Below, piece by piece: positions 6,085 to 25,583 of a DNA stretch of 64,000 nt. The stretch's first letter is position 1. Every line of letters begins with the position of its first letter. The stretch spans positions 62,001-126,000 of the forward strand of contig NZ_JAJAGO010000004.1 of the NCBI RefSeq assembly GCF_025165795.1. Direction: 5' to 3'. Both the position numbers and the translations under genes were made by a program. The DNA is from Streptomyces gossypii (GTDB lineage Bacteria; Actinomycetota; Actinomycetes; Streptomycetales; Streptomycetaceae). Below the pieces are notes generated by a model. The model saw only the letters and a list, made by a program, of their open reading frames with translations. It did not search any database and was not told the origin of the DNA.

Positions 6085-7098
6085 ATGAGCAAGAGTGCTC
6101 TCATCACCGGCATCACCGGCCAGGACGGCTCCTATCTGGCGGAACTGCTGCTGTCCAAGGGCTATACGGTGCACGGCCTGGTACGCCGCTCCTCGTCCTT
6201 CAACACCGCCCGGCTGGACCACATCTACCAGGACCCGCACGAGGCGGAGCGGCGGCTGATCCTGCACCACGCGGATCTGACCGACGGCGTCGCCCTGGTC
6301 AACCTGCTGCGCGAGGTCGGCCCCGACGAGGTCTACAACCTCGGCGCCCAGTCGCATGTCCGCGTCTCCTTCGACTCACCGCTCTACACCGGGGACGTCA
6401 CGGCGATGGGTGCACTGCGGCTGCTGGAGGCGATCCGGGCGAGCGGCATCGACACCCGCATCTACCAGGCGTCGTCCTCGGAGATGTTCGGCTCCGCCCC
6501 GCCCCCGCAGCACGAGCGCACCCCCTTCCACCCGCGCAGCCCGTACGGCTGCGCCAAGGTCTTCGGCTACTGGTCGACCGTCAACTACCGCGAGGCGTAC
6601 GGCCTCTATGCGGTGAACGGCATCCTCTTCAACCACGAGTCACCCCGGCGGGGTGAGACCTTCGTGACCCGGAAGATCACCCGAGCGGTGGCCCGCATCA
6701 GCCAGGGGCTGCAACAGCACCTGTACCTCGGCAATCTGGATGCGGTACGGGACTGGGGTTACGCCCCCGAGTACACCGAGGCGATGTGGCGGATGCTCCA
6801 GCACGACGAGCCGGACGACTATGTGGTGGCCACCGGTGAGGCGGCCTCCGTCCGGGACTTCCTGGGCGCCGCCTTCTCGGCCGCCGGACTGGAGTGGCGG
6901 GACCATGTGCGCTTCGACCCGAAGTACGAGCGGCCCAGCGAGGTCGACGCGCTGATCGGCGACGCGACGAAGGCGGAGTCGCTGCTCGGCTGGAAACCGC
7001 GGGTCCGATGGCCCGAGCTGGCACGGATCATGGTCGAGGCGGACATCAGCGTCCTGGAGGCCGAACTCACCGGGGCCACCGTACGGATCGACCGGTGA
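6085..7098 (+). CDS. gmd: GDP-mannose 4,6-dehydratase
   Basis: Makes GDP-4-keto-6-deoxy-D-mannose, the precursor of GDP-fucose and related deoxyhexoses; 337 aa, near the family norm. [10 protein letters not shown] (residues 9-18) is the Rossmann signature. SSSEMFG (130-136) carries the catalytic Ser and Glu133, and YGCAK (Y154, K158) completes the site. [16 protein letters not shown] is the conserved substrate segment. ATG 6085 starts exactly at the family N-terminus. The next ORF can begin at a GTGA overlap, so this is the first gene of an operon with secreted proteins and a glycosyltransferase. Confidence 0.97.
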
Positions 7099-7127
7099 AC
7101 GGCACGGCAGAGGGCACGGCAGCGAGC

Positions 7128-9278
7128 ATGGCAGGCAGCACACGGAAGCAGACGAGGTGGGGTTCGGTGAACGGTACGGCGGGAGTGAGCGGGGGGAAGG
7201 TGCGAGGAGCCAGAAGGACGGTCGCCTTCGGCGTCGCGTTCTTGGTAACCGTCGCGTCCTGGACGGGCGTGCAGTTGGTCAGCCCCACGGAGGCGGGCGC
7301 CGTGACCCCGCCGGTCGGCATCACGGCCGACGATCTGCCCACCTGGCAGACAAACGGCGTGGTCTGGGCCATGGCGCAGCACGAGGGTGTCGTCTTCGCC
7401 GGGGGCACCTTCTCGGCCATCCGCCCGCCCGGCGCGGCGGCGGGCAGTGACGAGCGGGACGCGCTCAACTTCGCGGCGTTCAACGCCGCCACGGGCGCGC
7501 CGACGGACTGTGAGCTGTCCTTCACCGTCGGGTCCGGCACCGCCACGGTCCGGGCCCTCGCCGTCTCCCCCGACGGCAGCACGCTCTACGCGGGCGGCCG
7601 GTTCGGCGCGGTCAACGGCACCTCGGTGAGCAACGTCGCCGCGGTCGACCTCGCCGACTGCTCGGTCAAGTCCGGCTTCAAGGTGTCGGTCTCGGCGACC
7701 GTGCGGGCGCTGGGCGTCACCGACGACACCGTCTATCTCGGCGGCGACTTCAGCACGGTCGGCGGCCAGAGCCGGGCCCGGTTCGCCGCCGTCAGCACCT
7801 CGGGCGCCGTCACCTCGTGGAACCCGAGGGCCGACGATGTCGCCCGTGCGCTCGAAGTCACCCCGGACGGCAAGAACATCGTGCTCGGCGGGGACTTCGA
7901 CACCATCGGCGGCAAGTCCTCGCACGCGCTGGCCGTCGTCAACTCCTCCTCGGGCGCGACCACCAAGACCTACGGCTCGACGTTCATCCACCGCTCCTCG
8001 GTGGTCAAGGGGCTGGCCGTCGACGCGAGCGGCGTCTACACCGCCAACGAGGGCACCGGCGGCGGGGTCTTCGACGGACGCATCGCCCTCGACCTGAGCG
8101 ACTTCAACCAGCGTTGGCGCGACACCTGCCTGGGCGCCACCCAGGACGTCACGGTCTACGACTCGGTGCTCTACAGTGCCTCGCACGCCCACGACTGCGG
8201 CAGCATGGGGCAGTTCCCGCAGATGAACGACCGCCAGCACCTGCTTGCCGAGTCGGTGGGCAACCCCAAGCCGCTGCTCTCCTGGTTCCCCGACACCGAC
8301 GACGGTCCCTCCGGCACCGAACAGATCGGGCCGCGCACGATGATCACCTCGTCCCGCTCGGGCACCGACTACATGTGGGTGGGCGGCGAGTTCACCCGGA
8401 TCGTCACCCACGGGAACATGCGGCAGCAGGGCCTTGTCCGCTTCGCCAGCGGCCCCGACACCGGCGCCCCGAGCGTGCCCGACCAGGTGACCGCCGCCAA
8501 CGTCACCGGCGGCAAGGTCAAGGTCAGCTGGCGCGCCGGCCTGGACGAGGACGACAGCAGGCTGACGTACCGGATCTACCGGAACGGCTCCAGCACACCC
8601 GTCCACACGATGACGGCGGACTCGGTGTTCTGGAAGCGGCCCACCGTCAGTTTCACCGACGCGGACGCCCAGCCGGGCACGAAGTACACCTACCGCGTCA
8701 CCGCGAGCGACGCGGGCGGCGCCAACACCAGCAGCCAGTCGGCGGGCGCCTCCGTGACGACCCCGGGCACGCCCGCGCAGACGACGGTGGAGCGCGCGGC
8801 CACGGCCGACGCCTATGTGAACGGCTCGGCCGCCACCTCCACCTACGGCACGCACCAGCAGCTGGCCGTACGCGGCAGCTCGGCGTACGAGACCTACGCG
8901 CGCTTCAGCCTGCCCGCCGCACCCAGCGGCATGAAACTGACCGGAGCGAAGCTCGCCGTCCGCACCAGCAGTGAGACCTACGCGGGCTCGGCGGACGACG
9001 CACGGGTACGGGCGGTCACCGGCGACTGGTCCGAGTCCGATGTCACCTACGCGACAAGGCCGGCGCTGGGCGGCACCACCCTGGGCACGCTGAGCGGGGC
9101 GTCCGGACCCGACAGCGAACAGTCGGTGACCCTGGACACCGCCGAGATCGCGGGATCGCTGAACGGCACCCTCGATCTCGCGCTGACCAGCACGGGCACG
9201 GACAGTCTCTGGCTGTGGGCGAGCGAGTCCGGTGCCGCCAAGGGGCCACGGCTGACCCTCACCTTCGAGGCGGCATGA
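7128..9278 (+). CDS. Secreted beta-propeller / FN3 / DNRLRE-type surface protein
   Basis: Exported protein of about 716 aa. After a basic stretch and hydrophobic signal (RRTVAFGVAFLVTVASW, cleavage probably after EAGA) there are at least five GG-F blades (AGGTFSAI, AGGRFGAVNG, LGGDFSTVGG, LGGDFDTIGG, VGGEFTRI) typical of DUF5122-like propellers. A fibronectin III domain follows (VPDQVTAANVTGGKVKVSW onward), then a C-terminal DNRLRE/CBM96-like module (ATADAYVNGS to the end). Starts at GTG 7095 (overlapping gmd), ATG 7128 and GTG 7167 (good GAGGTGGGG site) are all in frame. It overlaps the next lipoprotein gene by ATGA. Likely a cell-surface or polysaccharide-binding protein; ligand unknown. 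Confidence 0.85.
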   Translation: MAGSTRKQTRWGSVNGTAGVSGGKVRGARRTVAFGVAFLVTVASWTGVQLVSPTEAGAVTPPVGITADDLPTWQTNGVVWAMAQHEGVVFAGGTFSAIRPPGAAAGSDERDALNFAAFNAATGAPTDCELSFTVGSGTATVRALAVSPDGSTLYAGGRFGAVNGTSVSNVAAVDLADCSVKSGFKVSVSATVRALGVTDDTVYLGGDFSTVGGQSRARFAAVSTSGAVTSWNPRADDVARALEVTPDGKNIVLGGDFDTIGGKSSHALAVVNSSSGATTKTYGSTFIHRSSVVKGLAVDASGVYTANEGTGGGVFDGRIALDLSDFNQRWRDTCLGATQDVTVYDSVLYSASHAHDCGSMGQFPQMNDRQHLLAESVGNPKPLLSWFPDTDDGPSGTEQIGPRTMITSSRSGTDYMWVGGEFTRIVTHGNMRQQGLVRFASGPDTGAPSVPDQVTAANVTGGKVKVSWRAGLDEDDSRLTYRIYRNGSSTPVHTMTADSVFWKRPTVSFTDADAQPGTKYTYRVTASDAGGANTSSQSAGASVTTPGTPAQTTVERAATADAYVNGSAATSTYGTHQQLAVRGSSAYETYARFSLPAAPSGMKLTGAKLAVRTSSETYAGSADDARVRAVTGDWSESDVTYATRPALGGTTLGTLSGASGPDSEQSVTLDTAEIAGSLNGTLDLALTSTGTDSLWLWASESGAAKGPRLTLTFEAA

Positions 9279-21571: not shown

Positions 21572-21908
21572 CCCCCGAGTTGGGGGCTTCTCCGGCAAGC
21601 GCCGCCACACGAAGTGGCCCCCGCCTCCTCCCACCCTTCGCGCGAGGGCGGCCTCGCCAGGGCACACCACAGATGCGTGGTGCTCTCCCGGCGCAGCGAT
21701 GCCTGCCGACAACCCGCAACTGCAGGGCGTTGCCGAGGTTGTTCAAAAGCCCTCAAGGTTAAGGGCTGTCCCGTGATCCCTGGTGGATCAGCGCGCGGCG
21801 TCAGATGCGGTGCTTCGCAAGGCGGAGGGGCGTCCTCATACCGTGCGTGTCCGGGCGTTCCGACAATGCAGCGAGGTGCCGTAGCTGTCGTCGTGCGCCC
21901 GCCAGGGA
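21572..21908. other. 337-bp intergenic region containing repeat copy C
   Basis: No gene-like ORF. Positions 21760-21908 lie within a 166-bp inverted-repeat element. The first 190 bp have nothing recognised apart from the end of the regulator gene's transcription unit. Confidence 0.5.
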
Positions 21909-21925
21909 TCACGGGACAGCCCTTA
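21760..21925. mobile_element. 166-bp element with 24-bp perfect terminal inverted repeats, copy C
   Basis: The left end 21760-21783 and right end 21902-21925 are perfect reverse complements over 24 bp (they include GGGCTGTCCCGTGATCCC). TTA occurs just outside or at both ends and could be a target duplication. The interior holds the shared core (GCAAGGCGGAGG at 21817, CCGACAATGCAGC at 21860). It is too small for a transposase, so a non-autonomous (MITE-like) element is the best reading. The right end overlaps the last codons of the downstream-strand oxygenase gene (stop at 21909), so the insertion has supplied that protein's C-terminus. Confidence 0.8.
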
Positions 21926-22709
21926 GATCCCCTAACAGAATGGGCGGCATCAGATCGCTCTCGCTGATGGTGTATGTCAGCAGGGGGTAGATGAAGTCCG
22001 ACTCATTGTTCTCACGGCGCCGTAGTCGGTAGAACTCGCGCCGCTGCTCATCGTCGGCCGACATGAGGCGCGCACCCTGCGGGAGGTATACATGTCCGTC
22101 GCGAAACCGAACGGAGGTCTTGGACGTTCGAAAGGTTACGCCCAACCATTGGTTGTCCGCCGTCTGGACGGGCGTGTCCAGTACGATTTTGTGCCTGAGC
22201 CGCCGATTCGAGTCGACGGAAAACGCGACGATACTGTTGTGGGCGAGAGGGATCTCGAGCTTCTCGCCACCGGATTCCTTTGATTCGAAGATCAGCTTCC
22301 TGGGCGGGCTCGCTTCGGGATGTTGGTAGCAGGAGAAGACGGCGATAAACGACTCGTCGGCCAGATCGAGGGCTTGGTCGGAATGGCTGCCCATGGTTGT
22401 GTAAGCGTTCGTGTAGCTCTCGATGAGAGCGCTGTTGAAGCCGACCGAAAGCGCCGCACGTTCTTGAATCTGCTGCGCCAGCCGTTCGTGCACCGCCCGG
22501 AAACGCTGCGGCGGGCTGCTGTATCGAGTGGTAGTACGTACGAGAGGCACACCACCCGCCTCGTCGCCCTTGGTAAGCGCGGCGCCTCGGCGGCCTTTTC
22601 CTACGTCTTCCAAACGAGCCGACGCAGACAGCTCCCCGAAGAGATTCTCCTCGGTTGGCAAAGCGCACGAGAGGATCTCATCCGAGATCCTAGACTCGGG
22701 GGGCAACAT
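21909..22709 (-). CDS. AlkB-like 2OG-Fe(II) oxygenase (second of a tandem pair)
   Basis: 266 aa. The iron/2-oxoglutarate site reads H109-S-D111, H173 (RLRHKIVL) and R194 (GVTFR), in the order and with the spacing of AlkB-type dioxygenases. The last residues (LGDLRAVP) are encoded by repeat element C, so the original C-terminus may be lost. ATG 22709 overlaps the upstream gene by 20 bp and has GGGAGA before it, so the two are coupled. Several segments match the upstream protein (for example RENNESDFIYPLLTYT versus EENSTSSFIDYGDGF). The substrate may be a nucleic acid, protein or small molecule; not determinable here. Base composition is less GC-rich than the surroundings. Confidence 0.75.
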   Translation of the reverse strand: MLPPESRISDEILSCALPTEENLFGELSASARLEDVGKGRRGAALTKGDEAGGVPLVRTTTRYSSPPQRFRAVHERLAQQIQERAALSVGFNSALIESYTNAYTTMGSHSDQALDLADESFIAVFSCYQHPEASPPRKLIFESKESGGEKLEIPLAHNSIVAFSVDSNRRLRHKIVLDTPVQTADNQWLGVTFRTSKTSVRFRDGHVYLPQGARLMSADDEQRREFYRLRRRENNESDFIYPLLTYTISESDLMPPILLGDLRAVP

Positions 22710-24033
22710 AGTCTCCCGTGTTCATACTGAAGAGAAATCCATCGCCGTAATCGATGAAGGACGAGGTGCTGTTCTCCTCGGCATACAGCCTGCGCAGCTC
22801 GTTCATGCCGGCCGGTGCGGGTTGCCCCAGCTCCACCAAATCTCCGGCCACTTTGAGGAACGTGTGGCCGTTCTTGTGAACGGCTTCGGCGCTCGAACAG
22901 CGCGCCACGTATCCCAGGCGGGTCGGGAGCAACTCGGCGTCCAACGTTGAGGGCCGGATTTCGTGCGTATACAGGCGGTTGGTGGACAGCGGCATGAAGA
23001 ACACGGAGCCGGGGTAGAGAGTCAGGGTGAACTGCGCGGGGAGCGCGACCCCGTCGCGTTCTTCGGTCGGCTCCTTGAGGCGAAAGTGGAGTCTGGTCAG
23101 CCCGCTGGCACCCTTCACGCCGTGGTCGAAGGCGTCTTCGGCCAGGGGCTGCAGCCTGTCGAGCCGGTCATAGAAGGTGCAGAAGGCCATGATGCCATTG
23201 ACGGGCATGTCCTTGGTCTTGTCGGCATGGGCCGAGATCTTGGCCTTGGACTGCTTGCGCTCGGCCGTGGCAAGGGTGTTGTGGTAGATCTGAGCGAGGA
23301 CGTGATTTAGCGGTGCCTGGTTCCGGAAGACGGCGGCGGCCTCGCGGTTCAGATCCTCGACGATGCGCGTGTCGGTCGGGCGAAAACTCTCGGTCGGCCC
23401 CGAGAGATTCGTGGAGCACCGGAGCAGGTGGAAATTTAGTTCATCACCGTTTCGTGTGACGGGCGTCAGATAGATTCCACTGCGATGGGCCGTTCCAGGC
23501 TTGGTGGACTCCGTCAGGGACTGGAACTCGTGCTCCGCACGGATCCGTTGGAAGTGATCGGCGCCGAGTCCGAAAAAGCGGCGATAGTACACGCCGACGC
23601 CGTGTACGCGGATGGGGACTCGGCCGAGGCCGACGAGGGTCCAAGATTTGCCGACGTCCTCGTGGTAACCGTGTGATAGCTCCCGGATAACGAATACCCG
23701 GGCAGCCGCATGCAGTTGGCGGCCGCTGATCCCGGATATATCGCCACACAGGTAGACGGTCTTCTGCACGAGGCTGGGAGAACCAGAAGCAAGGTCCTCC
23801 GGCGTGATTGTGGACCCGAAGAAGTCCCTGATCAAGTCATTATCTTGCAACATCGAAGGCGCAACCAAAATGTTGCTCGCATCCTCGATGCAGGCTTCTG
23901 CTGGCTCTGTTGTGTACGTCAAACGGTACCTGCCATTCACAGATCTTGATGGATTGCTCAAAACCGTGGACATGGCAACGGCCCGCACTCTTTCGTTTGC
24001 GTTGCGAAGCGCAAACGAAAGGATACGGACCAT
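22690..24033 (-). CDS. AlkB-like 2OG-Fe(II) oxygenase with N-terminal extension (first of a tandem pair)
   Basis: 447 aa from ATG 24033 (AAGG five bases upstream); ATG 23973 is an alternative that would leave a palindrome in the leader. The C-terminal half carries H269-A-D271, H357 (YTHEIRPS) and R378, with the same 21-residue H-to-R spacing as the downstream protein. The first 220 residues match no domain I recognise. Third codon positions and overall composition are less GC-biased than in neighbouring genes, which suggests horizontal acquisition. The pair forms a two-gene operon ending at repeat element C. Confidence 0.7.
   Translation of the reverse strand: MVRILSFALRNANERVRAVAMSTVLSNPSRSVNGRYRLTYTTEPAEACIEDASNILVAPSMLQDNDLIRDFFGSTITPEDLASGSPSLVQKTVYLCGDISGISGRQLHAAARVFVIRELSHGYHEDVGKSWTLVGLGRVPIRVHGVGVYYRRFFGLGADHFQRIRAEHEFQSLTESTKPGTAHRSGIYLTPVTRNGDELNFHLLRCSTNLSGPTESFRPTDTRIVEDLNREAAAVFRNQAPLNHVLAQIYHNTLATAERKQSKAKISAHADKTKDMPVNGIMAFCTFYDRLDRLQPLAEDAFDHGVKGASGLTRLHFRLKEPTEERDGVALPAQFTLTLYPGSVFFMPLSTNRLYTHEIRPSTLDAELLPTRLGYVARCSSAEAVHKNGHTFLKVAGDLVELGQPAPAGMNELRRLYAEENSTSSFIDYGDGFLFSMNTGDYVAPRV
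23990..24021. promoter_or_regulatory. 32-bp perfect inverted repeat at the start of the oxygenase operon
   Basis: CTTTCGTTTGCG (23990-24001), 8-bp spacer, CGCAAACGAAAG (24010-24021). It lies 12 bp inside the longest oxygenase ORF or 17 bp upstream of the shorter start at 23973. An operator or an mRNA hairpin over the translation start are both possible. Confidence 0.5.
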
Positions 24034-24099
24034 TGAACCTTGATGCTCTCACGGGGCTCGACAGCGGGCAACGGGTTCTGCTGTACGGGCGGGGTGCGG

Positions 24100-24678
24100 T
24101 CAGGGGGGAGGGTGGAGGTGGGTGCGCTGGCCGTCGTTGTCGAAGATGGCCAGGATCTCCGCAGGGCCGCCGTGGGCCCTCATGGCGTGGGGGGTCATGG
24201 TGGAGAACTGTGCCGCCTGGCCGGTCTCGACGAGCACGCGCCGCTCTCCGAGCAGCAGGAGGACGGTCCCCGACAGGACGGTGAACCAGTCCTTGCCCGG
24301 GTGGACCCCCAGCTCGTCGGTTCCGCGCGGATCAGCCTGCTGAGTGAGGCGGATCTTGGCGACGGTCATGCCCTGCGGTCCACCCTCGCCGCTCAGCAGC
24401 CAGGTGGTCAGGCCGCGCTCCTGGTCCCGATGCGGCCTGATCACCACGTCGTCGTCATCGGCCGACTCCACCAGCTGGTCCAGGGAGGTGCCGAGGGCGC
24501 GGGCGAGCGCGGTCAGCTGGTCCAGGCTGAGCCGCCGGTGGCCCGTCTCTATGCGGCTCAGGGTGGACGGGCTCAGATAGCAGCGTGCGGCCAGGTCATC
24601 GAGTGACCAGCCACGGGCCAGCCGCAGCCCCTTGATGCGCTGGCGCACGACACTGTCCACATCGCCTTCTTGCGTCAT
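24100..24678 (-). CDS. XRE-family regulator with C-terminal cupin domain
   Basis: 192 aa from ATG 24678. N-terminal helix-turn-helix at residues about 13-66 (LRLARGWSLDDLAARCYLSPSTLSRIE is the XRE signature; shown here only as position). The C-terminal half is a single cupin (HPGKDWFTVLSGTVLLLLGE, then QAAQFSTMTPHAM) that should sense a small ligand. Divergent from a methyltransferase gene with 47 bp between the starts, the usual layout for a regulator controlling its neighbour and itself. Confidence 0.92.
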   Translation of the reverse strand: MTQEGDVDSVVRQRIKGLRLARGWSLDDLAARCYLSPSTLSRIETGHRRLSLDQLTALARALGTSLDQLVESADDDDVVIRPHRDQERGLTTWLLSGEGGPQGMTVAKIRLTQQADPRGTDELGVHPGKDWFTVLSGTVLLLLGERRVLVETGQAAQFSTMTPHAMRAHGGPAEILAIFDNDGQRTHLHPPP

Positions 24679-24725
24679 ACGCAAGACCTTATGCCATCAC
24701 CGCAAACCGCCAGTACGGTCGGAGT

Positions 24726-25583
24726 ATGACGAACCAGGAACACCACCCGCACCACGCGGCGGCCGCGCCGAGCGAAGCAGCCATGGCCGAGGTTCTGGAC
24801 CTCGACGCCGAGGTACTGCACACATACCAGGCGGACGTGACCGCCTGGCTCGCCGACCTTTCCGACGGCAGCCCGCCCCGACGGATTCTCGATCTGGGCA
24901 GCGGGACCGGCACGGGCACCTTCGCTCTGCTGGAGCGTTTCCCGGAGGCCCACGCGACCGCGCTGGACGTTTCCCCCCAGATGCTGCACCGCCTGCGGGA
25001 CGGCGCCTGCGCGCGCGGCCTGGACGAACGGGTCCACACCGTCCTGGCGGACCTGGATGCACCATGGCCCTCCCTGGACCCCGCCGACCTGGCATGGGCG
25101 GCCTCGTCCCTGCACCACATGGCAGATCCGGACCACATCCTCACCGAGGCGTTCAGGACGCTGCGCCCCGGCGGGCTCCTGGCCATCGCCGAGATGGACT
25201 TCTTCCCCCGGTTTCTGTCCGATCACCTCGGCCTGGGCCGCCCCGGACTCGAAGCACGCGTCCACGCCGCCCTGAACGAGGATCACGGCGGTGACCTGAA
25301 CCCGGCGCTGCTGGATGCCGGATTCACCCTGGAGACGAAGCGTCCCTTCGTCATCGACTTGCAGCACCCCCTCCCGGCGGCCACCGGCCGCTACGCCCAG
25401 GCGTGCCTGCGGCGTCTGCGCGCGCACCTCGACGGCCTGATGGACGGCGAGGACCTGGCCACGCTCGACACCCTCATCGACAGCGACGGCCCCGACGGCG
25501 TCCTGCGACGCCAGGACCTCACCGTCCGCACGACCCGGACCGTCTGGGTGGCCAAGCGGCCACAACAACGCCCGTCGCAGTGA
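24726..25583 (+). CDS. Class I SAM-dependent methyltransferase
   Basis: 285 aa. Motif I is ILDLGSGTGTGTF (residues 54-66), followed by ALDVSP and the post-motif segment LAWAASSLHHMADP. FRTLRPGGLLAIAEMD is motif III. It resembles UbiE/type 11 small-molecule methyltransferases; the substrate is unknown. It is probably controlled by the divergent XRE-cupin regulator. It is followed after 83 bp by a separately regulated ATPase gene. Confidence 0.9.
   Translation: MTNQEHHPHHAAAAPSEAAMAEVLDLDAEVLHTYQADVTAWLADLSDGSPPRRILDLGSGTGTGTFALLERFPEAHATALDVSPQMLHRLRDGACARGLDERVHTVLADLDAPWPSLDPADLAWAASSLHHMADPDHILTEAFRTLRPGGLLAIAEMDFFPRFLSDHLGLGRPGLEARVHAALNEDHGGDLNPALLDAGFTLETKRPFVIDLQHPLPAATGRYAQACLRRLRAHLDGLMDGEDLATLDTLIDSDGPDGVLRRQDLTVRTTRTVWVAKRPQQRPSQ

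Follow-up and report, generated by a model that had tools for sequence, protein, structure and literature searches.

We identified, on the minus strand of a 64,000-nucleotide stretch of Streptomyces gossypii DNA (the window), two overlapping genes, A and B, that we read, tentatively and with a little less than even confidence, as an accessory two-part system of AlkB-family Fe(II)/2-oxoglutarate (2OG) dioxygenases, probably heteromeric and acting as a nucleic-acid dealkylase or hydroxylase. Computation supports the predicted fold of B, the paralogy of A and B, their pairing in every sample, the invariance of the catalytic residues, the dispersal of the pair to unrelated sites, the presence of transposase relics in some loci and covariation in a leader hairpin. 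By fold and active site the proteins are of the AlkB kind; what is new is the obligate paired form, the extra parts and the mobile life. A horizontally spread AlkB set that is strictly paired and comes on top of the AlkB native to the cell would suggest an alkyl lesion or nucleic-acid modification specific to filamentous actinobacteria, the principal producers of antibiotics. A literature search found no publication on the pair, a result that does not in itself show its absence in print.

Organization of the A-B locus

The preliminary description placed two coupled open reading frames at 22690-24033 (A) and 21909-22709 (B), and both were confirmed on the minus strand, with the start of B overlapping the end of A. 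The features of the locus, in window coordinates, are as follows:

21737..21758: conserved right end of the A-B unit, CCTTGAGGGCTTTTGAAYAACC in the direction of B, now beyond the MITE
21760..21925, no strand: MITE with 27-nt terminal inverted repeats at the 3' end of B, a later insertion outside the unit
21909..22709, minus strand: gene B (AlkB family, PF13532, ALKBH2-like predicted fold; paralogue of A), its last ~9 codons contributed by the MITE
22690..23922, minus strand: gene A (AlkB-like Fe(II)/2OG dioxygenase, predicted); frame open up to 24033, start probably TTG at 23920-23922
23976..24037, minus strand: predicted 5' leader hairpin upstream of A, with covariation; 62 nt, 26-nt arms with 8 nt between them
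24038..24075, minus strand: conserved block upstream of the hairpin, promoter-like by eye in the direction of A (TTGCCC at 24071-24066, 17 nt, GAGCAT at 24048-24043)
24030..24098, plus strand: 23 codons, divergent from A, 91% identical to the start of the transposase relic in locus L001

Both genes are less GC-rich (61% in A and 60% in B) than the window as a whole (71%), and the 500-base intervals of lowest GC between 15000 and 32000 are those from 21750 to 24249. The lower GC relative to the neighbours, noted beforehand, was borne out here and also in the best 80 of 162 relatives, the sample behind all locus counts out of 80: A and B average 65% and their flanks 72%, and in every one of the 80 loci the pair has the lower value.

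The ATG of the 447-residue frame first assigned to A sits inside the leader hairpin and is common to 1 of the 22 relatives aligned there. In 58 of 80 relatives an ATG lies 7-9 codons before the counterpart of window residue 47, and in 34 of 80 an in-frame stop lies at most 39 codons upstream of that residue. The window counterpart of the relatives' ATG is ACG, preceded by the TTG at 23920-23922 behind GGCAGG. Based on the position of the relatives' ATG and on this TTG, the first ~37 codons of the long frame are probably 5' leader, and A would start near 23922 and comprise ~410 residues. Stops were flagged in 2 of the 12 copies of A recovered from the genus, at long-frame residues 36 and 29, which fall in the leader; none of the 12 had a stop flagged inside A proper. 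Homology to B begins in A at residue ~165-184, which leaves approximately residues 39-165 as the A-specific N-terminal part. At ~125 residues, it is shorter than the ~220-residue extra N-terminus of the preliminary description, and the 447-residue version of A was ruled out because its start falls within the leader hairpin. The ~125-residue part matched no Pfam family.

The pair had also been described as lying between a MITE-like element and a palindrome. Both are real, but the palindrome is part of the unit's own leader (arms at 23976-24001 and 24010-24035) and the MITE is a later-inserted member of a genome-wide family. The MITE is ~166 bp long, with 27-nt arms (21760-21786 and 21899-21925) that are 96% complementary, and is present genome-wide in 32 near-full copies, counting this one, which the rest match at 89-97% identity; the 98 matching pieces in the genome count many arms twice. 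It is short, ends in terminal inverted repeats, has many dispersed copies and carries no gene, as expected of a MITE. The element replaces the region of B's original stop codon and encodes the last ~9 residues of the protein.

Predicted folds and active sites

We predict with good confidence that B is an AlkB-family Fe(II)/2OG dioxygenase nearest to ALKBH2. Window B matches PF13532 (2OG-FeII_Oxy_2, the AlkB family) with E 1.3e-6 and 29.2 bits, just under the gathering score of 31.2. In alignments of 34 members each of A and B, chosen from 81 sequences, the family is matched by 33 of 34 B members (E up to 0.1; best E 4.1e-9); the B of genome G541 lies above the cut-off, as does, with neighbours in frame, that of G543. 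PHROGs returned for B a weak match only, to an alkylated-DNA-repair family (E 0.078). The structural model of B (pLDDT 80) has ALKBH2 as its best Foldseek match (E 6.8e-10) and superimposes on it over 176 residues (VIA Z 18.8, rmsd 2.6), followed by ALKBH3, FTO and AlkB (Z 15.6-16.0 for AlkB). A sequence profile also leads from B to ALKBH2 (E 0.011), with HxD and H aligned.

For A, window searches matched no Pfam family even at E 10, and PF13532 was matched by 23 of the 34 chosen members (E up to 1; best E 1.9e-4). Its model is poor (pLDDT 52), and on that model A looks AlkB-like too, with an AlkB match over 173 residues within 137-383 (VIA Z 10.9, rmsd 3.8). The preliminary description had called both proteins AlkB-like and had proposed a search of predicted structures for a double-stranded beta-helix; an AlkB-type fold was indeed found in B, while the match of A carries the uncertainty of its model. 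Neither NCBIfam nor PADLOC models matched A or B. A profile search of the PDB with A gave as its sole result the phage baseplate protein Gp6 (E 0.06-0.15, positions 131-193), which was treated as chance.

The two proteins had been proposed as paralogues, and profile-profile comparison agrees: hhalign of the 81-row alignments joins A184-427 to B40-240 (95.1% probability, E 3.2e-8, 27% identity), and tblastn with B also matches the stretch of A in 13 of 80 loci, with E values from 2e-7 to 1e-3 against a small database. Judged from these alignments, the similarity is beyond chance, and the profile alignment takes in the C-terminal extension noticed in the preliminary description. In six loci (L034, L046, L048, L056, L069 and L071) the match range of the A query is ~600-700 bases longer, probably from a second segment landing on B, a further sign of paralogy.

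The proposed active-site plan, an H-x-D followed by a His and then by an Arg 21 residues later (H357/R378 in A, H173/R194 in B), holds in 81 of 81 sequences: H269, D271, H357, R372 and R378 are invariant in A, and H109, D111, H173, W188 and R194 in B, so that the HxD...H iron triad of the AlkB family is present in both proteins throughout. In AlkB the RxxxxxR motif is R204/R210; R372 and R378 of A have the same spacing and may correspond to it. B differs from AlkB in that its invariant Trp188 presumably occupies the position of the first 2OG Arg. AlkB and ALKBH2 use an acidic residue after HxD to read methylated bases; it is absent from A and B, so their substrate may differ from 1meA or 3meC.

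With ALKBH2, ALKBH3 and E. coli AlkB (PF13532), B shares the predicted fold, the HxD...H and the C-terminal Arg, as A does at lower confidence. The pair differs from them in being an obligate two-gene unit of sporadic, mobile distribution, in a C-terminal extension after the barrel that is common to both proteins and in the extra N-terminal part of A. Bacterial ALKBH groups beyond AlkB appear in an earlier classification (PMC3265494); they include ALKBH2_HighGC (Burkholderiales and Actinomycetales) and, of groups 9-16, ALKBH13 and ALKBH14.

An AlkB-type fold, here a predicted one, would not by itself prove a nucleic-acid substrate, since small molecules or proteins are the substrates of several 2OG families. 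We consider it unlikely that A and B oxidise a small molecule or a protein and have in common with AlkB just the fold of the clan. Such a role would suit the failure of either window protein to reach a Pfam gathering score and the Trp of B in place of the first 2OG Arg of AlkB, but the 50 structure matches listed for B are AlkB-family entries, with ALKBH2 and ALKBH3 first, and no pathway partner is conserved around the pair.

In 10 pairs of our choosing, dN/dS was 0.16-0.51, in line with moderate constraint on both genes, and the unit may be kept by moderate purifying selection; values up to 0.5 mean modest constraint only.

Pairing, distribution and neighbourhood

In all 80 loci, the best of 162 relatives, B comes after A, and in 79 of them the stop of A falls inside B, by 17, 20 or 29 nt; the exact length of the overlap depends on the starts, which are our own choice. 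Gene calling picked up A in 78 of the 80 loci and B likewise in 78. The relatives belong to Streptomyces, Kitasatospora, Embleya, Streptacidiphilus, Actinomadura, Actinocorallia, Catenulispora and one further actinobacterium. Of 150 Streptomyces genomes, 12, among them the window's own, have full A, and these 12 also have B, each as a single copy; two weak A hits from that search (G107 and G023; E ~1e-3, N-terminal part only) were set aside, B being absent there. An order-wide sample had A in 25 of 197 genomes, and a phylum-wide sample in 2 of 396, each belonging to the genus of the window. The same three records of a plasmid collection match A and B; the A match in a Nonomuraea record spans residues 35-413 only, and that copy may be damaged. 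No match was found in phages, nor in viral contigs, which were queried with two peptide patterns per search. The pair is thus obligate in all samples examined, and sporadic: where the preliminary description had called for a search for the adjacent pair, homologues turned up together in every sample in which both were searched for.

The overlap of the two genes and their obligate pairing suggest that A and B are coupled in translation and form a heteromer. We infer that the two proteins would be halves of one accessory dioxygenase system with both subunits catalytic, each holding iron with its HxD...H and anchoring 2OG with its C-terminal Arg, and that the heteromer would oxidise an N-alkyl or methyl group on nucleic acid, by dealkylation or hydroxylation, beside the cell's ordinary AlkB. 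A stronger PF13532 match (164.6 bits) elsewhere in the window's genome argues that the pair provides an extra function. To our knowledge, AlkB enzymes known so far act as single proteins, and we know of no heteromeric one in bacteria that would precede this.

At the criteria used, every gene family other than A and B is limited to 8 of 80 loci or fewer, which rules out a conserved pathway partner and matches the earlier remark that none was obvious. Of the 145 nearest neighbours, 130 were scanned, and the commonest Pfam families among them (short-chain dehydrogenase, TetR and HTH_31) reached 4 of 130 each, against 5 of 129 for the commonest in background genes (129 scanned of 130 sampled). Beside A, at 24100-25583 of the window, lie what look by eye like an XRE and cupin regulator gene and a divergent methyltransferase gene; G019, a relative that lacks A-B, matches this region with 74% DNA similarity across 1.4 kb. 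In L045 and L049 (~6986-7000), the ATG of A overlaps the stop codon of the upstream gene, as if A-B had been captured into an operon; by eye that gene resembles DUF397.

Alkylation by streptozotocin is directly reversed by AlkB and AGT homologues, according to a passage of PMC9040887. By that precedent, A and B could be a specialised repair pair against a particular genotoxin, for self- or cross-resistance, and their sporadic presence in antibiotic-producing genera, the mixed-genus tree of A and their addition to another AlkB would all fit. The Streptomyces self-resistance enzymes named in that passage (AlkZ, YtkR2 and AlkB for streptozotocin; PMC9040887) are likewise accessory genes of the alkylation-repair type in antibiotic producers. 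A and B form a dioxygenase pair rather than a glycosylase, however, and the neighbour counts given above, no higher than background, reveal no conserved biosynthetic company; we regard this role as improbable. More improbable still is an anti-phage or anti-plasmid system that modifies or unmodifies RNA or DNA: a sporadic, isolated two-gene unit would suit it, as would neighbours that match 22 PADLOC models against 8 in a background set of about equal size, but this excess is slight, consists of 1-2 proteins per model, by name largely AAA-ATPase models able to match one protein (AAA_21 was found in 2 scanned neighbours), and neither PADLOC nor the phage and viral searches matched A or B, leaving a defence island unsupported.

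Mobility of the unit and transposase relics

Genome G039, which lacks A, shares the L049 flanks, separated by ~50 bp where L049 has the 1,994-bp unit (6987-8980), an empty site that, as aligned, would represent gain or loss of just A and B. L045 and L055 align at the G039 site as L049 does; L067 has no left-side alignment near the unit. The window and G019 have only the 24107-25541 side in common, so no empty site was read there. The tree of A mixes genera, with 20 label changes against a minimum of 6 but below the 27.3 in shuffles, and with 33 of 78 inner branches open; this mixture suits transfer and is no proof of it. DNA similarity to the window ends at the MITE on the B side and at varying points on the A side. 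By eye, the other loci diverge within ~25 nt after the B stop. The leader breaks off at many different positions. The right-end motif was found once, at the A-B locus, in 121 genomes.

On the strand opposite the leader, L001 carries 111 codons of a transposase N-terminus (PF13613, HTH_Tnp_4; E 9e-8). L126 matches PF13613 likewise (E 1.9e-7), and L002, L003 and L008 have shorter or broken transposase stretches. In these five loci similarity extends beyond the leader, and the transposase is linked to the unit as decayed relics only. L002 also has a stretch that by eye resembles part of the C-terminal portion of the transposase, with no Pfam match. DNA similarity in this left part covers 228 bp between L001 and L126 and 62 bp between L001 and the window, whose 23-codon remnant overlaps the promoter-like block and would not on its own identify a transposase. 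No intact transposase was found at E 1e-8 in 61 genomes, a search that shows little without a positive control, and no left end matching the conserved right end was found.

Decayed HTH_Tnp_4-type relics adjoining the leader in several loci, together with the one empty site, make the unit look like stripped transposon cargo. The simplest history would be an element in which a transposase and A-B were transcribed divergently, the transposase then decaying; with that transposase as the putative carrier, the unit (promoter, 5' hairpin, A and B) would have spread among filamentous actinobacteria, probably by transposon. Insertion sequences with passenger genes (HTH_Tnp_4) compare well in the divergent transposase N-terminus by the leader of several loci and in the unrelated insertion sites; they differ in that no intact transposase was found for A-B, with neither terminal repeats nor target duplications established.

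The leader hairpin

Comparison of 23 sequences, the window and 22 loci picked by eye (L023, with an altered centre, was left out), indicates that the palindrome is a hairpin in the 5' leader of the A-B unit. The folding energy of the 62 nt is -38.8 kcal/mol for the window; the lowest value among the 23 is -58.3, in L057. In the alignment, 89.1% of cells pair, and pairing falls to 38-56% when partners are slid by 1-3 columns, a comparison that favours the unslid structure, the sequences having been picked as leader-bearing and the structure taken from one of them. The RNAalifold covariation term is small (-1.16 of -17.62 kcal/mol). A search of Rfam with a cut-off of E 1 returned two miRNA-family matches to the hairpin, both far under their gathering scores. 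The same 23 sequences underlie the leader profile. A model of the hairpin had strong matches (E 2e-15 or better) in 5 of 61 genomes, each at the start of A, which rules out a dispersed element; weaker ones (E 5e-6 to 3e-3) came from 7 further genomes, and in G042, which has A-B, the match is on another contig.

The hairpin may regulate the unit through its mRNA, but a competing account has a substantial chance, somewhat under even, of being right: the palindrome would be an inverted repeat that lay between the divergent genes of the lost transposon, its arms kept alike by palindrome template switching, and not an RNA regulator. It does sit between the transposase remnant and A, and the other strand of its left arm has, by eye, an AAAGGAG-like site before a TTG. 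The whole leader is kept in 24 of 81 loci, which also counts for a transposon repeat and means that the hairpin is not essential. Against template switching, double-sided changes occur in 24 cells compared with 9.3 in shuffles (0 of 500 as high), and three pairs (9-66, 13-62 and 15-60) are mostly U-G, a state that template correction would remove and RNA tolerates. Should the mRNA hairpin be regulatory, it might serve as an expression-tuning sensor or substrate of a heteromeric AlkB, spread as transposon cargo, whose two active sites, having diverged, oxidise a nucleobase in succession or in dependence on each other; we think this fuller scheme quite unlikely as a whole. In L024 (5480-6990), an insertion of ~1.5 kb, IS-like by eye and with a transposase-like gene, splits the arms of the leader hairpin.
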